Source of the DNA: Candidatus Methanoperedens sp.
GTDB lineage: Archaea > Halobacteriota > Methanosarcinia > Methanosarcinales > Methanoperedenaceae
DNA length: 32,572 nt
Assembly: GCA_023249105.1 (NCBI GenBank)
Contig: JAHFDG010000045.1
Location: forward strand, 1-32,572
Reading direction: 5' to 3'
In this document: piece after piece, positions 1,757 to 13,952 of the stretch
Position numbering within the stretch: position 1 is the first letter of the stretch
Layout of the letters: every line of letters starts with the position of its first letter
Notes under the pieces: generated by a model
Told to the model about the DNA's origin: nothing
The model's database searches: none
The model's input: only the letters and a program-made list of their open reading frames with translations
Program-made: the position numbers and the translations under genes

Positions 1757-3453
1757 CTCTCCAGTGTCATGGGTTTGACAACAGCGTTATCCAAAGAGAC
1801 AAGAAGTGTTGAGATGTCCTTCTTTAAGTTGGAGATAACCTCGATGGGCTGGTTTGCTTTCCTGCTTAATTCTTCATCAGGCATGGCAATGATTTCGCCC
1901 AACTGCATTTGCAGTATATTGCCAAATAATGCCCTCTCTATTTTAACATCCAATGCAAGTGTCGCCCTTCTTTTAATCACGTAAAGCTTAAACACAGGGA
2001 TACCGACTTTTTTGTAGAGAGAGAACACGTTTGCTAAAGTCATGTTTTTGATGGTCTTTATTCCCTGTTTTTCAAGTTTCTCAGCATACGCATCACCTAC
2101 ACCCTCAATATCCCTGATTGGATGATTTTCAAGCACTATTGGATTTCCTACTACCTTGATAAAATCAAAGTCGGCATAACCCCGGGGATCATTTGAACCA
2201 TACCAACCAGTACCGTATATTCCGATTTCCTGCTCATTTCCGAAAGAGCCTGGAGGAAATGTATATTCACGTACATATTCAAATGGTGAATCATCGCCAC
2301 CTCTGCGCGCCCTTATGGCGACGTAATCCTTGTTACGCTCTATCTCGAAATACCATCCCTCAGCGGGCAGGGGATTTGGTGAGTTGGGGAAGAATATGGG
2401 TTCATTATTACTGCCAGCAGACAGGGACATTGCGTTCGAACCTGGATTGGCATCGTTTACACCCACGCTACGGCCTATGTATATAATTGTCGCCCCAGTA
2501 GCACCTGGTACCCTAATGAAGAAATGCATGTTGCGGTTGTTTGTTGGCTCCGCAGGACGCATGTTATAGGTTATCGCTGTTTTAAGAATCCACCTGTCTC
2601 CAGAAAATGGACGAATAAGCTGTAGAGGTTTTGCATCGCCACCGCTCGGCCAGCCGTAAGCATCAATTATGTAACGCAGGTATCCAGGATTAGCAGTAAG
2701 TGAGTAGCTACCCTTGCCTGGGTTTATTACCCAATCAGAACTCAATTCGGGGCCTTCAAACTGCTCATCAAAAATCACAGTTTCCATGGGTTGGATAGCA
2801 GCATGTGACCGGATCTCTTCTTCCGTCCTTGCAACCTTTGACACATGAAATTCATCAACAAGCCCAATATCAGTTTCGCCCCAGTGGCTCAGATAGGCAA
2901 ATACTGAGCCCGAAAAGGCAGGCCATACGTTTACAGTTGAATACGCATCCACCAATCCGTTAACATATGTTTTTGTTCCGCTGGGGCTCCAGCTTACCGC
3001 CACATGCGTCCACTTATTTAAAGGAATTGTCGTTTTTCCGACAGGCATTTTGCCCTGATTTCCTCCCCAGACATCATAAACCAGTTTGCCGTCGGCATTT
3101 AATGAAATATACAAAATAGTACCTCCTTGCGGAAGAGACGTTAAATCAGACAAATTGAATTCTAATATTACTATCGAGTATTGTCGCGGCTTTATCCACA
3201 TCTCAATTGTCCCTTCAGTAAGTACCCCCTGAGCTGCCTCATTTCTATCCCACATATGCGCTCCATCCCAGCGATACCAGGGAGAAAAGGAATATTTAAT
3301 ATAAGCGCCCTTGGTAAGATTAACTGCTTGTTCTAAGTTCGGCAGGCTTTCCCCATAAGTTAACGCGCCGAAACTTGTTCCTTTAGTAGCGCTATTAAAA
3401 TGGTCTAACAAAACAGTATTGCTATCAGGCTGGATTTGTAAGATTTTTGACAT
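1744..3453 (-). CDS. LamG/concanavalin-fold protein with C-terminal helix-hairpin-helix tail
   Basis: A 569-residue protein with three parts. Residues about 10-220 are a LamG-type jelly roll: W149-T-H-V-A-V-S-W, then Y-V-N-G, then the typical exit G197-L-V-D-E-F-H-V-S-K-V-A-R-T-E-E-E-I. Residues about 228-435 look like a second beta-sandwich, resembling beta-xylosidase-like or DUF1349 concanavalin domains. Residues about 446-569 are helical and start with a helix-hairpin-helix-like segment (I449-E-G-V-G-D-A-Y-A-E-K-L), as in DUF4332-like domains. There is no signal peptide or membrane segment, unusual for LamG proteins. The start at 3453 follows a GGTGGT ribosome site, with a TATA-like box around 3488-3498. 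It may bind glycans or other proteins; the substrate is unknown. Confidence 0.75.
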   Translation of the reverse strand: MSKILQIQPDSNTVLLDHFNSATKGTSFGALTYGESLPNLEQAVNLTKGAYIKYSFSPWYRWDGAHMWDRNEAAQGVLTEGTIEMWIKPRQYSIVILEFNLSDLTSLPQGGTILYISLNADGKLVYDVWGGNQGKMPVGKTTIPLNKWTHVAVSWSPSGTKTYVNGLVDAYSTVNVWPAFSGSVFAYLSHWGETDIGLVDEFHVSKVARTEEEIRSHAAIQPMETVIFDEQFEGPELSSDWVINPGKGSYSLTANPGYLRYIIDAYGWPSGGDAKPLQLIRPFSGDRWILKTAITYNMRPAEPTNNRNMHFFIRVPGATGATIIYIGRSVGVNDANPGSNAMSLSAGSNNEPIFFPNSPNPLPAEGWYFEIERNKDYVAIRARRGGDDSPFEYVREYTFPPGSFGNEQEIGIYGTGWYGSNDPRGYADFDFIKVVGNPIVLENHPIRDIEGVGDAYAEKLEKQGIKTIKNMTLANVFSLYKKVGIPVFKLYVIKRRATLALDVKIERALFGNILQMQLGEIIAMPDEELSRKANQPIEVISNLKKDISTLLVSLDNAVVKPMTLESVAF

Positions 3454-3485
3454 TGTCTAACCACCAAATAATCATTTATTTTCTT

Positions 3486-3500
3486 GCTATAAATATCTTG
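3486..3500 (-). promoter_or_regulatory. TATA-like box of the LamG gene
   Basis: Read on the minus strand this stretch gives GATATTTATAGCAAG, an archaeal TATA-like element about 40 bases upstream of the LamG start codon. No transcript data are available. Confidence 0.35.
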
Positions 3501-3573
3501 CTTACGATGTTGATATTTGCAATTGACGATTAACTATAGTGTAATTTAAATTTTTGCTTATAAAATATAGTGA

Positions 3574-3590
3574 TTAAATTTATACATTAA
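3574..3590 (+). promoter_or_regulatory. TATA-like box of the mini-ORF/cooS unit
   Basis: The sequence TTAAATTTATACATTAA lies about 50 bases before the GTG of the mini-ORF. A start roughly 25 bases downstream (about 3610) would leave a short leader that contains the GGAGGT ribosome site at 3620-3625. Confidence 0.4.
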
Positions 3591-3632
3591 AGGATTATTA
3601 CTAAATACTATCCCAAATCGGAGGTAATACAA

Positions 3633-3755
3633 GTGGTTAATATATTGAACAAAATCGTAATCAAAAGAAACAAAGAAAATGCAACGATGCAAAAATATAA
3701 AATCTACCAACCCCAATGTAACATCGGGGCGGCGGGAAAATGCTGCTGTAAATAA
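3633..3755 (+). CDS. 40-residue cysteine-rich mini-protein upstream of cooS
   Basis: A GTG-initiated frame of 40 codons, preceded by a strong ribosome site (GGAGGT at 3620-3625, seven bases before the GTG). It ends 11 bases before the cooS ATG, and the cooS ribosome site AAAAGGTGA starts right at its stop codon, so translation is probably coupled. The first 25 residues are basic. The end reads Y25-Q-P-Q-C-N-I-G-A-A-G-K-C-C-C-K40. The CX7CC spacing (C29, C37, C38) and the Q-P-Q-C context resemble the N-terminal cluster-D/cluster-B entry of many CooS proteins, here on a separate peptide. It could be a small Fe-S peptide, a Ni/Fe handling factor, or a remnant of a duplicated CooS N-terminus. That it is translated is inference. 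Confidence 0.6.
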   Translation: MVNILNKIVIKRNKENATMQKYKIYQPQCNIGAAGKCCCK

Positions 3756-3766
3756 AAGGTGATATT

Positions 3767-5638
3767 ATGGAATCAATTAGCGCACATAAGTCAGTAGTAG
3801 AACTACATAACGTATTGCATAAAGACAATGTAACAAACAGTTTTGACAGGGCAGAAAACCAGGGAAAACGCTGTTCATTCTGCGAGCAGGGTTTAAGCTG
3901 CCAGCTTTGCAGCAACGGCCCATGCCGGATAAAGCCTGGGGCAGAACGCGGGGTTTGCGGCATAGATGCCGACGCAATGGCAATGAGGAACATGCTGTTC
4001 CTGAACACCATGGGTACAACGGCATATACCTTCCATGCCAAGGAAGTTGCAAATACACTCAAAGCGACCGCGTTGGGAAAAACACCTTTCCAGATAATGG
4101 ATGAAGCAAAGCTTCGAAGCTTCGCTGGGAAGTTAGGGATAAAAACTGGCGGGAGTACAAAAGAAATCGCCATTGCAGTAGCAGACGCGATGATCGCCGG
4201 AATAAACTCGGATTCAGGAGCTGAACTTTCCAATGTTCTTCTCTTTGCCCCAAAAACAAGGATAGAACTCTGGAGAAAACTGGGTGTCCTTCCCGGAGGC
4301 CCTCTTCATGAAGTCATGGATGCTACCACAAGTTCGATGACAAATATTGACGGAGATTATGTTTCACTGGCAAAGAAGGCTTTACGCCTTGGTATTTCCT
4401 GCATTTACGGCTCACAGATACCGCTTGAGATAGTCCAGGATGTACTGTTCGGGACACCACAGCCCCATGCGGTCAATGTTGACCTCGGGATTATCGACCC
4501 GGCCTACGTGAATATTGCAGCTAATGGTCACGAACCTTTCATCGGCGCAGCGCTCATCAAAGCTGCCCATGAGCCAAGAAATCAGGAAAATGCAAAGAAA
4601 GCAGGAGCAAAAGGACTGCATATCATCGGTTCAATAGAAACAGGGCAGGAACTTATCCAGAGATTCAAGACAGATGATGTATTCGTTGGCCTGACCGGGA
4701 ACTGGCTGTCTATCGAACCAGCGCTTGCAACAGGCGGCATCGATGTTTTTGCGATGGATATGAACTGTTCCCCTCCGGCAATGGGTGGATACCAGGATAA
4801 ATACAATACGACCCTTGTTTCGGTTTCAAAACTTGTTAATGTCCCTGGCATGAAAGACCAGATAGTTTATAAACCGGAAGAGGCAGCAGCACAGGCACAG
4901 AAACTAATAGATATAGCTATCGAGAACTTCAAGAAGCGAAAAGGAAAGGTCACCAATCCTTCAAGCAGGAAGCAGAACGCTGTGATCGGTTTCTCGGCTG
5001 AAGCCTGTCTTGGGGCACTCGGCGGAACACTTGACCCGCTGCTTGATGTCATCAAGAAAGGAACCATCAAAGGTGTGGTGGCTCTTGTGAGCTGCACAAC
5101 GCTGCGTGATGGAGGACAGGATATCAATACTTTGAAAATGGCCCGCGAACTTATCAAACGGGATATACTGGTCATCAGCGCAGGATGCGGAAATGCAGCG
5201 CTTCAGGTAGGCGGTCTTACCACTCTTGAAGCTAAACAGGAAGCAGGCCCCGGTCTTAGAGCGGTATGCGAGCTTCTCAAAATCCCGCCGGTATTGAGCT
5301 TTGGAACATGCACCGATACAGGAAGAATTATTTCTCTTGTTACGGCAGTCGCTGACGCACTCGGAGTTGACCCTTCAGCGCTTCCTGTTGCGGTCACAGC
5401 TCCAGAGTACATGGAACAGAAAGCAACGATAGATGCTATCTTTGCGCTGGCTTTTGGCCTGTATACACACGTAGCGCCTCTTCCGCCGGTGGGAGGAGCG
5501 CCCCGCCTTGTTAAACTCCTGACTGAAGATCTTGAAGGAATAACAGGAGGAAAGATCGCTGTAGAGACCGATATGGTTGATGCGGCAAACGGTATTGAAG
5601 CGCATATAAACAAAAAGAGAAAGGCGCTGGGGATTTAA
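3767..5638 (+). CDS. cooS: anaerobic Ni-carbon monoxide dehydrogenase catalytic subunit (CooS-type, variant)
   Basis: A 623-residue monofunctional CO dehydrogenase of the CooS family, which interconverts CO and CO2 at a Ni-Fe-S C-cluster and passes electrons through clusters B and D. N-terminal cysteines C45, C48, C53 and C64 fit the B-cluster; C36 and C39 give a CX2C D-cluster motif instead of CX7C. Compared with my recollection of C. hydrogenoformans CODH-II, retained C-cluster residues are H255 (N-G-H-E-P-F), C334, C443, C474 and C515, plus catalytic K552. The position of Cys295 appears to be Glu291 (G-S-I-E-T-G-Q-E in place of G-I-C-C-T-G-N-E). Relay histidines 93, 99 and 102 appear as Y87, E93 and N96; only H90 remains. 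No cooF, cooC or hydrogenase genes adjoin it. Family assignment is firm; CO oxidation activity is not. Confidence 0.9.
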   Translation: MESISAHKSVVELHNVLHKDNVTNSFDRAENQGKRCSFCEQGLSCQLCSNGPCRIKPGAERGVCGIDADAMAMRNMLFLNTMGTTAYTFHAKEVANTLKATALGKTPFQIMDEAKLRSFAGKLGIKTGGSTKEIAIAVADAMIAGINSDSGAELSNVLLFAPKTRIELWRKLGVLPGGPLHEVMDATTSSMTNIDGDYVSLAKKALRLGISCIYGSQIPLEIVQDVLFGTPQPHAVNVDLGIIDPAYVNIAANGHEPFIGAALIKAAHEPRNQENAKKAGAKGLHIIGSIETGQELIQRFKTDDVFVGLTGNWLSIEPALATGGIDVFAMDMNCSPPAMGGYQDKYNTTLVSVSKLVNVPGMKDQIVYKPEEAAAQAQKLIDIAIENFKKRKGKVTNPSSRKQNAVIGFSAEACLGALGGTLDPLLDVIKKGTIKGVVALVSCTTLRDGGQDINTLKMARELIKRDILVISAGCGNAALQVGGLTTLEAKQEAGPGLRAVCELLKIPPVLSFGTCTDTGRIISLVTAVADALGVDPSALPVAVTAPEYMEQKATIDAIFALAFGLYTHVAPLPPVGGAPRLVKLLTEDLEGITGGKIAVETDMVDAANGIEAHINKKRKALGI

Positions 5639-5658
5639 TACAAATCCCCTTTTCTTTT
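5629..5658 (+). terminator. hairpin-plus-T-tract terminator of cooS
   Basis: GGGGATTT (5629-5636) pairs perfectly with AAATCCCC (5642-5649) around a five-base loop, followed at once by TTTTCTTTT. The hairpin overlaps the cooS stop codon. It is a clear intrinsic-type transcription end and marks cooS as the last gene of its unit. Confidence 0.7.
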
Positions 5659-5767
5659 ATTTACTTTGCAGTATAACCTCTGATGGGAGGTTCCAGTTCA
5701 AGTATCTAACATATATGTTCATTTAAAGCTTCTTTTAACGGAACTCCGTGCTCTTGTATTTTAATAC

Positions 5768-5784
5768 GATTAAATTTATAAGCA
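5768..5784 (+). promoter_or_regulatory. TATA-like box of the DUF2157 gene pair
   Basis: GATTAAATTTATAAGC sits about 55-70 bases before the GTG start at 5839, with the ribosome site AAGAGGTGG at 5824-5832 in the inferred leader. Confidence 0.4.
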
Positions 5785-5838
5785 AATGAGATATATTGGG
5801 TGGTAACTTAAAAAATTATAGTTAAGAGGTGGTATGTC

Positions 5839-7056
5839 GTGGAAGAAGATGAGTTTTACAGCAGGCTAAAGAATGAGCTTGAAGGGTGGCAGAAAGATGG
5901 TGTTATAGAAAGCTCCCAGGCAGAAGCTATCATGCGAAGATATGGCATAGAGAAAAAGGGATTCAAACCGGGAAATGTGATAACCGCCATTTCAACACTC
6001 GCGGCGATACTCGTGGGTGTTGGCGTCATACTGTTCTTTGCGTCGAACTGGGAGATGATGCCTGATGTTATTAAAGTGACACTCCTTTTGGCATCCACCT
6101 TCGGCATTTATTATGCCGGCTACTTAATGCGCTTTGAAAAAAAGACATATCCAACGGCAGGCCACGCTCTCCTTTTCCTGGGTTCGGTATTGGTTGGGGC
6201 AACTATACTTCTTACCGCACAAATCTTCAACATCAATGCTGATTCCCACTGGCTGTATTTGCTCTGGTTCGTTGTCGTAGCTCCAATGGGTTATTTCTTT
6301 GATTCAAAGCCGACAGTCGGTTTAAATATCTTGATTTTCATGTTTTGGCTGACCATTTCGATAAATGGCGGCGGTTACAGGGGCATGTCCCATCCGCTGC
6401 TTTTGTACATGCTATTCGGCATTGCCCTCTACAGCATCGGCCAGATACATGAGCTAACTGAAAAATGGTCGGGATTCAGGATGGTGTACAAAGGGTTTGG
6501 CATTTTTTTCATTCTTATCCCCTATTTTTATTTCAGTATCTGGCCGTCTTACTTCTTCTATAGCTACAATTACGGAGAGATGAGATTCGAAACAGCCGAA
6601 CAGCTGCTTATAGGATTATTTGCGATTCTTGGGATAGCATCGGTTCTTGCTAATCTTGTCGAAAAGGAGAAGCTTAGGAGCACAAGATACGAGTTCTATG
6701 TACTGCTGGCAGCATTTGCAGGCTGGATATTTTTATTCGTTATCAATACCTACCCTATCCTTCAAAATAACAAACCTGTAGAGACGCTATTATTTATTCT
6801 CTTTAACCTGTTCCTCTTTGGGCTTTCAATCGGGACAATTTCAATAGGCTATTACAAGAACCAGCCTGAGTTCGTTAATGTGGGAATCGTGTTCTTTGCC
6901 CTTGGCATTATGCAGGTATACATAAACCACCTTCAGGGAATGCTTCCCAAAGGCCTTGGTCTGATATTTGGTGGAATTATCCTGTTCCTGATTGCCTCAT
7001 TCCTTGAGAAAAAAAGAAGAAACCTGCTAACTGCTATGAAGGGTGTTGAGCAATGA
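5839..7056 (+). CDS. DUF2157 family polytopic membrane protein
   Basis: 405 residues. About 45 soluble N-terminal residues (a helical segment rich in charged residues, E-L-E-G-W-Q-K-D-G-V-I-E) are followed by roughly ten hydrophobic segments up to a basic tail (E-K-K-R-R-N-L-L). This arrangement matches the DUF2157 membrane proteins, whose function is not established. GTG 5839 is chosen because AAGAGGTGG lies six bases upstream; the ATG at 5834 is in another frame. The stop overlaps the next start (ATGA at 7053-7056), so the two proteins are very likely made together. The same two-family pairing is known in bacteria, which suggests a membrane complex. Confidence 0.8.
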   Translation: MEEDEFYSRLKNELEGWQKDGVIESSQAEAIMRRYGIEKKGFKPGNVITAISTLAAILVGVGVILFFASNWEMMPDVIKVTLLLASTFGIYYAGYLMRFEKKTYPTAGHALLFLGSVLVGATILLTAQIFNINADSHWLYLLWFVVVAPMGYFFDSKPTVGLNILIFMFWLTISINGGGYRGMSHPLLLYMLFGIALYSIGQIHELTEKWSGFRMVYKGFGIFFILIPYFYFSIWPSYFFYSYNYGEMRFETAEQLLIGLFAILGIASVLANLVEKEKLRSTRYEFYVLLAAFAGWIFLFVINTYPILQNNKPVETLLFILFNLFLFGLSIGTISIGYYKNQPEFVNVGIVFFALGIMQVYINHLQGMLPKGLGLIFGGIILFLIASFLEKKRRNLLTAMKGVEQ

Positions 7057-7594: not shown

Positions 7595-8356
7595 TTATTT
7601 TGTTATTTCCGCAGCGCGTTTAATCTCCGAGCCAAGCGACCTGAGTATAGCATCCCGGAGAGCGTTGGCTTCAAGACTTGTCCTCACCCTGGGACGCGGA
7701 AGTTTAATATCAAAAATCTCTTTTACAGTGCCCGGTCGGGCTGACATCACAACCACCCTGTCAGCAAGGTAAACCGCCTCATCCACGCTGTGCGTAACAA
7801 AAAGCACGCTTATGTGCTCTTTTTCCCAAATCCTGAGCAGTTCAGCCTGCATAATGTTCCTTGTCTGGGCATCAAGCGCTCCAAACGGCTCATCCATCAA
7901 CAGGAGTTTTGGTTTATTCGCATACGCCCGCGCTATGCCCACCCTCTGCTTCATTCCGCCTGATAATTCATGCGGGAAATGGTGTTCAAATCCTCTCAAA
8001 CCTACTAGGTCAATATAATGTTGTGAAATCCGCTCGCACTCTTCTTTGCGGCACCCTTTCACCTGCGGCCCGAACTCGATATTGCCTTTGACAGTCCTCC
8101 AAGGGAAAAGAGCATATTCCTGGAACACGAACCCGCATTCCTTATTTGTACCAACTATCTTTTTTTCATCAAGGAATATTTCTCCACCGGTCGGAAGTTC
8201 AAGTCCAGCAGCCAGGCGAAGGATAGTGGTTTTTCCGCACCCACTCGGACCGAGAAGGCATACAAATTCCCCGTCAGCTACTTCAAAATTTACCTTTTCA
8301 AGAGCAAAAAGGTCATTGAATTTTTTGGAGATATCCTTTAAGATTAATCTACCCAT
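7595..8356 (-). CDS. NitT/TauT family ABC transporter ATP-binding protein
   Basis: 253 residues with all ABC ATPase motifs: Walker A G36-P-S-G-C-G-K-T43, Q-loop Q79 (V-F-Q-E), signature L131-S-G-G-M-K-Q-R, Walker B L151-L-L-M-D-E-P and the switch histidine in V-T-H-S. It belongs to the nitrate/sulfonate/taurine branch (NrtD/SsuB/TauB), which energises uptake of small oxyanions or organosulfur compounds. It is the last gene of a three-gene minus-strand operon and overlaps the end of the permease gene by 13 bases. The motifs do not reveal the substrate. Confidence 0.9.
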   Translation of the reverse strand: MGRLILKDISKKFNDLFALEKVNFEVADGEFVCLLGPSGCGKTTILRLAAGLELPTGGEIFLDEKKIVGTNKECGFVFQEYALFPWRTVKGNIEFGPQVKGCRKEECERISQHYIDLVGLRGFEHHFPHELSGGMKQRVGIARAYANKPKLLLMDEPFGALDAQTRNIMQAELLRIWEKEHISVLFVTHSVDEAVYLADRVVVMSARPGTVKEIFDIKLPRPRVRTSLEANALRDAILRSLGSEIKRAAEITK

Positions 8357-9150
8357 TTTATGAACCTCTTTTGTAAAAGAAGTATGCTGATATTCATTAT
8401 GTACCCGATTATTCCTATCACTATCATTCCTGCAACCATTTCCGGATATCTCCCGAGGTCGCCCATGTTCCAGATAAAATAACCAAGACCGACGGGGCTC
8501 CTGATAACCATTTCGGCTGCCACGATTGCCATCCAGCCCACGCCAAGACCGATGCGTAAGCCTGCTATTATGGACGGGAAAGCCGATGGTATAATAACCT
8601 TTGTTATCATCTGCGACTCGGAAGCGCCAAGCGTCTTTGCAGCGTCAACGAGGCGCTCATCTATGGATTTTACACCATGAATCGTATTCAGGATAATGGG
8701 GAAAACCGTTCCTATGAAAACGATAAATATCGAACCCCCTGCCACGAGAATGAATACGGCAAGTGGTATCCATGCCATAGGCGGCATGTTGCGTACGATT
8801 TCAATGATAGGGTTGAGTATATTGCCGATTGGCTTTGAATATCCCATTCCGATACCCAGTGGGACTCCTACAATAAAGGCGATAATGCCTCCCTCTATGA
8901 CTCGCAGAAGACTTGCCTGCATATGTTCCATGATTCCATAAGTAAGCGCAGGCCCATGGATTTGAGTGAACAATGAACCGACAAAAGCGTACCAGGTTTC
9001 AATAGGTGTAGGGATGTCCCGCAGCCTGATGAAAGGGATATTGAAAATATCATTCCTTGCAAGGATTATAAGAAAGTGCCATAATACCACAAAACAGATA
9101 AGGGAAAGGATATTGATAACAAATCCTTTTTTCCCCGGATCGACTTTCAT
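8344..9150 (-). CDS. NitT/TauT family ABC transporter permease
   Basis: 268 residues with about six membrane helices and the cytoplasmic coupling (EAA) loop, [13 protein letters not shown], that docks on the ATPase. It belongs to the SsuC/TauC/NrtB branch. The ATG at 9150 shares a base with the stop of the binding-protein gene (TGATG), implying translational coupling; a TTG one codon earlier is possible but less likely. As a NitT/TauT permease it probably works as a homodimer. Confidence 0.88.
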
Positions 9151-10253
9151 CAATAACTGACCTTAAGCCCTTCCTTATCGGCCTCCATGAGGAAAAGCAC
9201 ATGCTGGATGGTTCCCGGACCCGGATATCCAACTGTCTTGCCGCTTAAATCCTTCATCGAGGTGATATTCTTTCCCACCACGATAACAGACCCTTCGTTA
9301 TTCATTCCTGCTACCACTTCAACACGGGCATCATCCAGGGCGAAATCATTGCTGTTTATCCTGTGGATGATAACTGGCGGGATGCCAAGGCTTCCGATAT
9401 CGACAGCTCCTGATTTGAAACCTTTTTGCATCTCGAACGCGCCGTTCAAAAACGGCGTACCATCGGAGAGGGTGATGTTTATTCCGGCATCTTTGAACCA
9501 GCCTTTTTTCCATCCCACATAGAACGGCAGCTCATGGATATCATTTGTAAGATAAGCATAGCGGATTGTTACCGGGGTCTTCAATGCCACGCTTGAAAGA
9601 TTGGCATTCTTATTCTGCGATGCCCAGTCGGAGTAACTCTTGTTAATCAATGCGTTTGCATAATCCGAAGCGTTCTTATATCCGGACTGGTTCCATTTCC
9701 CCGAGTCAAAAATACCGAAATCCTGTATCCTGGTTATGAATGTCTGTGCATCTGCAATATTGGGAGTATATACGAATTCGACATCCGAAAGGCTAAGATT
9801 TGCCGCTTTCGGGTCTGTCATACCGCCAAATTCCATTGTATATTTTATCAGGTCTTCATGATCGGGCGAGCTTATTGCCTTTGCATTATTGATGTATTCA
9901 ACCGATTTTAGCTGGACAAGAGCCATGCGTTTCAGGATTTCATCAGCGTTCGTAGTATTCCTGTACCAGTTATAATCGTACGCAACGACGCAGCATGGGT
10001 GCCCTTTCCAGATTTGCCCGGAGTATAACAAAGGTTTGCCAAATCCATTGGTGATTGCGATTGCGGGGTAAGGTTCCCACATAATGAACCCGGCGATTTC
10101 ACCGGTACCCAATCTCTGAACCATATCCTGCCCGCCCATTTTAACAAGATTAATGGGCTCTGAAACTGATTGCGGTGTCTTATTGCCTCCAATGCATCCG
10201 GCTGCCAATATCGCTAAAATAACTACCAATATAATTTTCAATGAGTTTTTCAT
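9150..10253 (-). CDS. NitT/TauT family ABC substrate-binding lipoprotein, lobes apparently circularly permuted
   Basis: 367 residues. The start at 10253 is chosen because GGAGGG precedes it and a lipoprotein signal follows (hydrophobic residues 5-19, lipobox A-A-G-C20). In normal SsuA/TauA/NMT1 proteins the first half carries Y-x5-P-F-Y-V-G...D-I-G-S-L-G...D-L-S-G-K-T-V-G-Y-P-G-P-G-T-I-Q-H, followed by the W-E-P-Y and H-P-C-C-V-V half. Here the second-half block comes first (about 34-185, with F-I-M-W-E-P-Y-P-A at 56-64 and H-P-C-C at 85-88), and the first-half block is at about 226-367, ending G-L-K-V-S-Y. That end would join smoothly to I-N-L-V-K-M-G-G at residue 34. It heads the transporter operon. 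The ligand is unknown: nitrate, sulfonate, taurine or another small molecule. Confidence 0.85.
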   Translation of the reverse strand: MKNSLKIILVVILAILAAGCIGGNKTPQSVSEPINLVKMGGQDMVQRLGTGEIAGFIMWEPYPAIAITNGFGKPLLYSGQIWKGHPCCVVAYDYNWYRNTTNADEILKRMALVQLKSVEYINNAKAISSPDHEDLIKYTMEFGGMTDPKAANLSLSDVEFVYTPNIADAQTFITRIQDFGIFDSGKWNQSGYKNASDYANALINKSYSDWASQNKNANLSSVALKTPVTIRYAYLTNDIHELPFYVGWKKGWFKDAGINITLSDGTPFLNGAFEMQKGFKSGAVDIGSLGIPPVIIHRINSNDFALDDARVEVVAGMNNEGSVIVVGKNITSMKDLSGKTVGYPGPGTIQHVLFLMEADKEGLKVSY

Positions 10254-10376
10254 GATTAACCCTCCGTAATTAATTATTATCTTCACAAACACCGTATTTA
10301 ACAATTTCCATATTTATTCTTACAATAACCCAAATGTATTAATTAGTAATGAGAGATATACAATCGTGATAAGAAA
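10254..10376. promoter_or_regulatory. divergent control region between ABC operon and HTH regulator
   Basis: This 123-base AT-rich gap separates two divergent genes. On the minus side GGAGGG near 10258-10264 is the ribosome site of the binding protein, with TATA-like candidates at about 10296-10316. On the plus side GATATACAAT (10352-10361) lies about 20-25 bases before the regulator ATG, so that transcript may be nearly leaderless. The arrangement suggests the regulator may control the transporter. Confidence 0.4.
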
Positions 10377-10895
10377 ATGGCAACAGAGGAATTAATAAAA
10401 GCGGCAATGGAGTCGGATGAGGCGTTTATAAAGGAATTTTCAAGGATAATCAAGGAAGAACTTCGTATGACTGCAGCGGAATTCAGCGAGAATTCAGGCA
10501 TCCCTGTAAGCACTATATACAAATTATTGTCTGGTCACAGGGAGCCCAATATCAAGACGCTGAGACAGATTGTGGCAGTGCTTCGGAAATTGGAAGGGAA
10601 AGAAAAAACAGAGTTTATTGCAGTAATAGCAGCGCGCCCCGTGCTTGATTATATAGCAGAGAAAAAACTGAAGCTCGGAGGGAGGCTTCTGACTATAAGG
10701 GAATACTCTGCAACCTCGATGGAAGAAGCAATCATCGCTGCGATAAAAGCAGAAAGGGATGGGGCAAAGGCTTTAGTGTGCGCCCCGATAGTGGCTACGA
10801 CTGTGGAGAAGATTCTTCGCATCCCTGTTGCGTCGATTATGCCAAGGGACAGCCTTATAGCTGCGATTGAGCTTGCGGCGAAGAAGATGGGATGA
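10377..10895 (+). CDS. XRE-type HTH transcriptional regulator with C-terminal sensor-like domain
   Basis: 172 residues. About 31-66 form a helix-turn-helix (M-T-A-A-E-F-S-E-N-S-G-I-P-V-S-T-I-Y-K-L-L), followed by a linker rich in charge. A C-terminal alpha/beta domain (about 85-172) contains G-A-K-A-L-V-C-A-P-I-V-A-T-T-V and I-P-V-A-S-I-M-P, reminiscent of PrpR_N-like ligand-sensing folds; that likeness is only suggestive. It is divergent from the ABC operon, which is its most plausible target. The stop overlaps a following ATG (ATGA at 10892-10895). Confidence 0.75.
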   Translation: MATEELIKAAMESDEAFIKEFSRIIKEELRMTAAEFSENSGIPVSTIYKLLSGHREPNIKTLRQIVAVLRKLEGKEKTEFIAVIAARPVLDYIAEKKLKLGGRLLTIREYSATSMEEAIIAAIKAERDGAKALVCAPIVATTVEKILRIPVASIMPRDSLIAAIELAAKKMG

Positions 10896-12626: not shown

Positions 12627-13952
12627 ATGATTATTTTGAATGAAAAAATATGCCAAGTTAAAATAGTATCACGAAAACCATGCGGGAGACCTATATATCG
12701 AGAGGAGAAATGTATTTTTCACCTGCCAAATAAGGATAAGAAAGAAAAAGAAATTTTTGAAAAAGAATTTTGTAAAGAATTCGATAGAATGGAAAAGAGC
12801 AATAGCATTCTTGAGTTAAATTTTGACAATTTTATATTCCAGGACTATATATGTTTTAAAAATCATACATTTAACAAACCTCTATCTTTATCTTGTGCAG
12901 AATTCAGTAAATGTGCAGATTTCACAGAAGCCAAATTCAAATATCGTGCGGACTTCTCAAGTGCAAAATTCAATGGCCGTGCAGATTTCACCAATGCTCA
13001 ATTCAATGATGTGGCAGATTTCAATGTAGCTATATTCAATGATAATGCAGATTTTATGGTTGCAGAATTTAAAAATGAAGCAATTTTTGAAAGTGCTGAA
13101 TTCAATAAAATAGCATTATTCACACAAGCTCAATTCAATAATGAAGCTGGTTTCTCATATGTTCAATTCAATGATGAAGCAATTTTTAGATGGACTCAAT
13201 TCAATGGTGAAGCAAATTTTTTTGACTCTGAATTTAGGGGTAAGGTTCTATTCGGCAGCGAGTTCACACCCATATTAAATAATAAATATCCAATTAATTT
13301 TCAATATTGCAAATTCTATAAACCACAGGATGTAAGGTTTCAATATTTCAATTTAAGTAATGTCTCATTTTTATATACAGATGTAACCGAAGTAGAATTT
13401 ATTAATGAAGTATGGGGAAAGAAAAAAGGCAAAATTAAAGGCAGAATTATTGTTGTAGATGAATCCAGAATCATGAAAGATGAAAATATAACATATGATG
13501 CAGTAGCTCAATTGTATCGAAGGCTCAGGCGGAATTACGAAGATAATTATAGATTTGCAGAAGCTGGAGATTTCTTCATTGGAGAGATGGAGATGCGAAG
13601 GCTTGATGTAACTGCACGGTTCAAGAACGAAAACATAAGAAAGATTGAATTATGGCTCAATAGGAACGTTTTTTCACTATTAGGCATCTACAAATTTTTT
13701 AGTCTTTATGGGGAAAGCTATATTCGTCCTGCAATTTGTGCTTTTATTGTAATAATTTTGTATCCATTGTTAATTCATTGGCACAATGCCTCTCCCATTA
13801 ATTTTGAAGACTTTCTATCTATCGATATAATAAGAAGTTTAGCTTCATTTTTTCAAATGGATAGCACATATATACCAGAAAGAATAATCGGAATTCCAAT
13901 ACTTGCCTTGCTTTTGATTGCTTTAAAAAGGAAGTTTGAAAGAAAAAGATGA
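12627..13952 (+). CDS. pentapeptide-repeat protein with N-terminal Cys/His cluster and two C-terminal membrane helices
   Basis: 441 residues. The N-terminus has a likely zinc cluster, C9-X9-C19-G-R-P-I-Y...C29-X2-H32. Residues 97-206 are ten tandem units of exactly 11 residues in the pattern A-(D/x)-F-x-x-A-x-F-x-x-x, with F at positions 3 and 8: the 5+6 spacing of Pentapeptide_3/4 families, which folds as a right-handed quadrilateral beta helix. A conserved helical block follows (Y-R-R-L-R-R-N-Y-E-D-N...G-E-M-E-M-R-R, 297-325). Two membrane helices lie at about 367-385 and 418-434, resembling the two-helix channel-like tail of related proteins. Function is unknown; a stimulus-gated pore or membrane scaffold is a guess. 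It is strongly AT-rich. No good ribosome site is visible. Confidence 0.75.
   Translation: MIILNEKICQVKIVSRKPCGRPIYREEKCIFHLPNKDKKEKEIFEKEFCKEFDRMEKSNSILELNFDNFIFQDYICFKNHTFNKPLSLSCAEFSKCADFTEAKFKYRADFSSAKFNGRADFTNAQFNDVADFNVAIFNDNADFMVAEFKNEAIFESAEFNKIALFTQAQFNNEAGFSYVQFNDEAIFRWTQFNGEANFFDSEFRGKVLFGSEFTPILNNKYPINFQYCKFYKPQDVRFQYFNLSNVSFLYTDVTEVEFINEVWGKKKGKIKGRIIVVDESRIMKDENITYDAVAQLYRRLRRNYEDNYRFAEAGDFFIGEMEMRRLDVTARFKNENIRKIELWLNRNVFSLLGIYKFFSLYGESYIRPAICAFIVIILYPLLIHWHNASPINFEDFLSIDIIRSLASFFQMDSTYIPERIIGIPILALLLIALKRKFERKR
12915..13244 (+). repeat. ten tandem 33-base coding repeats (pentapeptide units)
   Basis: The DNA repeats with a 33-base period (words such as GCAGATTTC and AATTCAATG recur). 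Each unit encodes one 11-residue step of the beta helix. Units are diverged in sequence but constant in length, so this is an in-frame protein repeat and not a CRISPR or satellite. Confidence 0.85.

Follow-up and report, generated by a model that had tools for sequence, protein, structure and literature searches.

A circularly permuted NMT1/SsuA-type binding lipoprotein in Candidatus Methanoperedens and its relatives in archaea and bacteria

Candidatus Methanoperedens sp. encodes an ABC-type substrate-binding lipoprotein in which the two halves of an NMT1/SsuA-type binding protein stand in exchanged order. The gene lies in a window of 32,572 nucleotides, i.e. the whole stretch of DNA that was analysed, to which all positions in Table 1 refer. 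The swapped order is not an assembly error, the protein is one member of a widespread family of archaea and bacteria, and the permutation is ancient and shared rather than local. With a probability of roughly 0.93, we consider the protein to be a type II (NMT1/SsuA-like) lipoprotein that was permuted once and that feeds a coupled permease and ATPase by the mechanism proposed below. The permuted family is apparently undescribed.

Order of the parts and the seam

In the mature lipoprotein, the first approximately 165 residues resemble the C-terminal region of NMT1/SsuA-type binding proteins, whereas their N-terminal region is matched by the last 140 residues. For instance, residues 31-103 match positions 151-223 of the 252 positions of the Pfam profile NMT1_2, while residues 242-356 match positions 5-112 of the 216 positions of the profile NMT1. 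Thus, C-terminal profile positions are matched first and N-terminal positions last, which shows that the order of the halves is swapped. The motifs follow the same arrangement, with WEPY (residues 59-62) and HPCCVV (85-90) preceding PFYVG (243-247) and GYPGPGTIQH (342-351), as an earlier note on this DNA had described. The intact reading frame, the signal peptide, the ribosome-binding site and the TGATG overlap that joins the gene to the permease gene, all of which had also been pointed out, are found in the sequence.

Table 1 Features of the permuted lipoprotein gene and its operon in the window
Feature	Position	Strand
Circularly permuted substrate-binding lipoprotein, 367 aa, ATG start, TGA stop, intact frame	9150..10253	-
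Shine-Dalgarno-like GGAGGG, six bases before ATG (read from the sequence)	10260..10265	-
Residues 1-33: signal peptide, lipobox Cys21 (10191-10193), short tether	10155..10253	-
Former C-terminal part, moved to the front: residues 34-200 (WEPY, HPCC), covering the second half of lobe 2 and the return to lobe 1	9654..10154	-
Linker between the ancestral C- and N-termini, residues 201-227	9573..9653	-
Former N-terminal part, moved to the end: residues 228-367, covering lobe 1 and the first half of lobe 2	9153..9572	-
ABC permease (SsuC/TauC type), translationally coupled by TGATG	8344..9150	-
ABC ATPase (SsuB/TauB type), overlaps the permease gene	7595..8356	-
Divergent HTH_3 regulator	10377..10895	+

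The order was also assessed by scoring every rotation of the mature protein against a profile built from seven normal-order relatives. In its native order, the protein matched this profile in two separate pieces of 59.2 and 51.6 bits and scored near the minimum of all rotations. Rotated sequences matched as one collinear piece with up to 128.4 bits, and the best rotations opened the mature protein between about residues 185 and 220. Compared separately with the normal-order family, each half finds its match, in exchanged order. At the seam, the match continues in the profile from position 161 to 166. Nine residues (KVSY and INLVK) span the cut, counted from Leu364 to Met39, and the same number is present in the normal-order sister protein L138 (NL-TVHDIQEVY-M); therefore, the ends can be joined without the need for an indel. 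The claim that the end of the protein continues seamlessly into residue 34 was thus borne out. The rotation scores and the seam reveal two collinear segments that have been exchanged and that rejoin without loss, as in a natural permutant. Together with the Pfam coordinates and 100 homologues of the same order, the rotation scores confirm the reversed lobe order that the earlier note had called an apparent circular permutation.

The overall dN/dS ratio is about 0.08, and both halves are under strong purifying selection. The linker is the fastest-evolving part of the mature protein, with dN values of 0.35-0.57 in distant pairs compared to 0.08-0.20 in the two halves. The histidine of the 'DIHEL' loop, the glutamine of 'GTIQH', and the WEP and HPCC motifs are largely kept in both orders. 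This conservation of residues from both lobes argues for a retained cleft.

Operon and proposed mechanism

We propose that a single permutation reshaped an ancestral gene of normal order, for which the simplest path would be a tandem duplication, a fusion of the copies and the loss of the two outer halves. A linker of 25-30 residues now connects the old termini, and the new ones lie in lobe 2, immediately ahead of the strand that leads to the WEP block. Both lobes probably form the usual Venus-flytrap cleft and may work as in a normal importer, with the lipid anchor tethering lobe 2 instead of lobe 1. As a best guess, the substrate would be a small organic molecule of a sulfonate-like or methylated kind.

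The permuted proteins can be divided into groups A, B and C, of which group A includes the window lipoprotein. It is conceivable that the lipoprotein of group A has ceased to work with an ABC permease and serves as a receptor or scavenger instead, because the homologues of group B lack a permease and lie beside histidine kinases, and two group A copies (L101 and L102) have no adjacent permease either. However, the gene is translationally coupled to the permease gene by TGATG, and a permease gene lies directly downstream in 25 of the 27 testable group A loci, which makes such a role improbable.

The HTH_3 regulator gene adjoins 12 of 25 group A operons and 14 of 37 group C operons, as well as the normal-order operons L079 and L080. 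It encodes a small protein with the conserved C-terminal region 'DGAKALVCAPIVATTVEK', which has no assigned function, and it stands divergently to many such operons in Methanoperedenaceae and Archaeoglobi.

Origin of the permutation

A maximum-likelihood tree was calculated from 48 permuted and 24 normal-order proteins. In this unrooted tree, all permuted proteins fall on one side of a branch with an ultrafast bootstrap value of 100 and an SH-aLRT value of 98, which places their single origin on one branch of the sequence tree. The neighbours of the permuted clade are L138, a normal-order protein of Candidatus Geothermincola (Actinomycetota), and eight further proteins of normal order from that phylum. 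Since the sister clade is seen on an unrooted tree, a change from the normal to the permuted order is very likely rather than proven. The closest pair of opposite order consists of L212 from Archaeoglobi and L138, which share 45% identity after rotation, with 51% and 39% for the halves.

The swapped order could also have arisen if halves of two different binding-protein genes had been fused, which would merely resemble a permutation. Such a history has been considered for TpMglB-2 (PMC4990184). However, trees calculated from each half alone place the permuted proteins beside the same normal-order sister clade with moderate support (SH-aLRT 91 and 90), and both halves of L212 are most similar to L138 among the normal-order proteins compared. 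The common sister group leads to the conclusion that the swapped order stems from the permutation of a single gene, not from a fusion of two. A fusion of unrelated halves is thus disfavoured by the half trees, and we regard it as quite unlikely. As expected for a natural permutant, both segments appear to come from the same parent, as judged from the moderately supported half trees (90-91) and the comparison of L212 with L138.

The textbook path to a circular permutation, a tandem duplication from which the outer halves are then lost, was put forward in the earlier note for this gene. The route is consistent with the common sister group of both halves, and that part of the proposal stands. As no tandem or fused duplicated intermediate was detected among the open frames of at least 480 amino acids in the fetched loci, we can only infer the route by which the single gene was permuted.

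Distribution of the permuted proteins

The collection comprises 100 distinct permuted proteins together with 20 relatives in normal order. The permuted homologues occur in Methanoperedenaceae, HR1-type ANME-2, Archaeoglobi, Syntrophomonas and other Bacillota, and the cut point is identical in all of those that were aligned. The search of related genomes that had been suggested therefore returned homologues with the same order and the same cut point. Orthologues with 61-95% identity are present in most of the searched genomes of the genus and the family. A second group, which includes a copy in the same genome (L061), shares 26-32% identity with the window lipoprotein and is collinear with it, and is thus permuted too. 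Full-length permuted matches of a third group were obtained in 21 of 59 genomes of the Archaeoglobi class and in 12 of 398 genomes from the phylum of the Clostridia record. Moreover, permuted matches were found in a Syntrophomonas record and in one more genome of the window's own class. Permuted copies are located on large closed contigs, for instance on a contig of 2,178,400 bases that makes up a whole genome and on a contig of 2,196,266 bases.

A misassembly or a local rearrangement artefact in the window genome, for which nothing speaks beyond the odd order itself, can be rejected with near certainty because independent assemblies of many species, single-contig genomes included, show the swapped order, both among the close orthologues and at 26-36% identity in further lineages and the paralogous group. 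The presence of normal-order homologues in the same strain had been named as an argument against the permutation. Indeed, the window genome encodes normal-order paralogues (L003), but these are more distant and leave the permutation unaffected.

Predicted structure

An AlphaFold2 model of the permuted protein, which was made with 34 sequences, reached a pLDDT of 84 and a pTM of 0.81, and the model of the normal-order sister reached 92 and 0.83, respectively. After rotation, the predicted elements of both models correspond in order. The elements E175, H181, E195, H202, E213, H218, E228, H234, H241, H262, H277, H295 and H316 of the sister correspond to E34, H41, E55, H62, E73, H78, E88, H94, H103, H132, H148, H166 and H195 of the permuted protein. 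Likewise, E41, H52, H65, E71, H82, E96, H101, E115, E126, H139, E146 and H155 of the sister correspond to E228, H239, H252, E258, H271, E286, H291, E311, E322, H333, E340 and H349.

Foldseek, which aligns in sequence order, yielded 1453 matches at E<=0.001 for the sister model, among them SsuA of E. coli (2x26) with TM scores of 0.76/0.84. By contrast, the permuted model gave a single match at this threshold, with a TM score of 0.29. Its matches to OppA-type proteins and glutamate receptors were dismissed as poor sequential matches. A sequence search for a solved permuted homologue returned only partial, single-half matches to normal proteins such as NrtC, NrtA, CmpA, SsuA and TauA. The element order, the confidence scores and the contrast between the Foldseek results are compatible with a similar fold of the two orders after rotation.

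Three groups and their gene neighbourhoods

A permease gene is located directly downstream in 36 of 39 group C loci. None of the 32 group B loci contains one. In 29 of these 32 loci, a histidine kinase gene lies directly upstream on the same strand, and the neighbouring kinases contain dCache, HAMP, HisKA and HATPase domains. The lipobox cysteine is conserved in the aligned group A proteins and absent from the aligned group B proteins. Nearly all proteins of group B have an N-terminal hydrophobic helix that lacks such a cysteine. Judged from the gene neighbourhood, group B proteins may act as ligand-presenting partners of the kinases. Going further, one ancient permutation may have founded a widespread, lobe-2-anchored class of type II proteins, in which group B, with its transmembrane helix and its place behind a dCache kinase, often with a response regulator, would be a two-component co-receptor rather than a part of a transporter, possibly because the moved anchor allows another docking geometry. 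We offer this wider reading tentatively and put it at somewhat below even odds.

The group B locus L061 comprises the permuted protein (4797-5903), the kinase (3037-4863) and a regulator (2506-3033), and the same arrangement is present in L047, L059, L060 and L167-L169. At L101 and L102, which encode group A-like permuted proteins, a Cache-like frame lies upstream on the opposite strand.

Several group C operons, from one Archaeoglobi genome and several Bacillota, lie together with genes of corrinoid methyltransferase systems (MtrH-type, MtaA-type and corrinoid protein). In L228 (696-7759), L229 (1767-8728) and L231, group C proteins are encoded within or beside genes of the MtaA/UroD type, a corrinoid protein, a RACo-like activator and the MtrH family. 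This linkage hints at methylated compounds as possible substrates of group C only. Corrinoid methyltransferase genes were not found with group A operons; therefore, a substrate assignment from gene context was rejected for group A, and we claim none. In the characterised methoxydotrophy cluster of A. fulgidus (AF_0006-13), the transporters named are of the MFS type and not an ABC system with a permuted protein (PMC8359953).

The Methanoperedens genomes that lack group A (L079, L080 and L081) contain an operon with a normal-order binding protein instead. The operons of L079 and L080 adjoin the same divergent regulator, which is 83-90% identical to that of the window. Furthermore, the ATPases of the three operons are 77-81% identical to the window ATPase, i.e. 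as close as among permuted operons, whereas the permeases share only 41-48% identity. With the ATPase and regulator so close and the permease so distant, it appears that the binding protein was swapped together with its permease, as one cassette around a shared regulator and ATPase. The regions compared with positions 7595-10895 of the window were L079:905-4039, L080:2460-5640 and L081:948-3516. One flanking lipoprotein gene is common to L079 and the permuted loci L071 and L097.

Relation to known binding proteins

Circular permutation has been used to engineer binding-protein biosensors and to study protein folding. To our knowledge, only few natural circular permutations have been traced at the sequence level. 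The window lipoprotein shares with the NMT1/SsuA/TauA-type type II proteins (PF09084, PF13379 and TIGR01728) homology in both lobes, a signal peptide and lipobox for export and anchoring, an SsuC/SsuB-type permease and ATPase operon, and predicted fold elements. However, the canonical order, i.e. start of lobe 1, lobe 2 and return to lobe 1, is replaced by swapped halves, with the termini and the lipid anchor in lobe 2 and an extra linker. Among the Pfam and NCBIfam models tested, none was found to span the permuted protein in its own order, and only partial matches were obtained. For instance, each of the 13 representatives gave such a match to the SsuA family and to SaoX of the Sec-assisted organometallic system (NF040735). 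The SaoX profile is in normal order, and only parts of it match the permuted members, far below the cut-off; an identity as SaoX was rejected for the window lipoprotein, which scores 35.9 bits against a curated cut-off of 300 bits. Since ordinary annotation would label the permuted proteins as NMT1 or SsuA by partial match, their class can easily escape notice. In the open-access literature searched, we found no description of a permuted NMT1/SsuA-type family.

Natural permutation of binding proteins is already known. Tp0684/TpMglB-2 of Treponema pallidum ('Type Ic' or 'Cluster Bc') is a naturally permuted type I sugar-binding protein (PMC4990184). Like the window lipoprotein, it is a permuted lipid-anchored binding protein, and the permutation recurs in several lineages. 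However, TpMglB-2 is of type I and permuted within the N lobe, whereas the window protein is of type II, NMT1-like and permuted within lobe 2; its Pfam matches are of the NMT1 type, which sets it apart from the MglB-homologous fold of Type Ic. Moreover, glycine-betaine-binding proteins related by circular permutation have been compared by structure (PDB 2B4L, 1R9L and 1SW1; PMC2395249). These are type II binding proteins as well, but they share less than 24% identity and were recognised from structure, whereas a single origin was traced for the permuted family and its opposite orders are up to 45% identical. The window protein has no Pfam match to the glycine-betaine family (OpuAC/ProX), and only NMT1, NMT1_2 and Phosphonate-bd are matched at E<=0.001.

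The two orders can thus be compared at up to 45% identity, with the permutation mapped to one branch. Furthermore, within a single genus, comparable operons with much the same ATPase carry either the one or the other order, which makes the role of anchor position and topology in docking, transport and sensing directly testable.

Other genes in the window

Elsewhere in the window, positions 3767-5638 encode a carbon monoxide dehydrogenase-like catalytic subunit, of the CooS type by sequence reading, upstream of two membrane-protein genes. The protein encoded at positions 12627-13952 has an extended series of pentapeptide-like repeats and, behind it, a transmembrane C-terminus.
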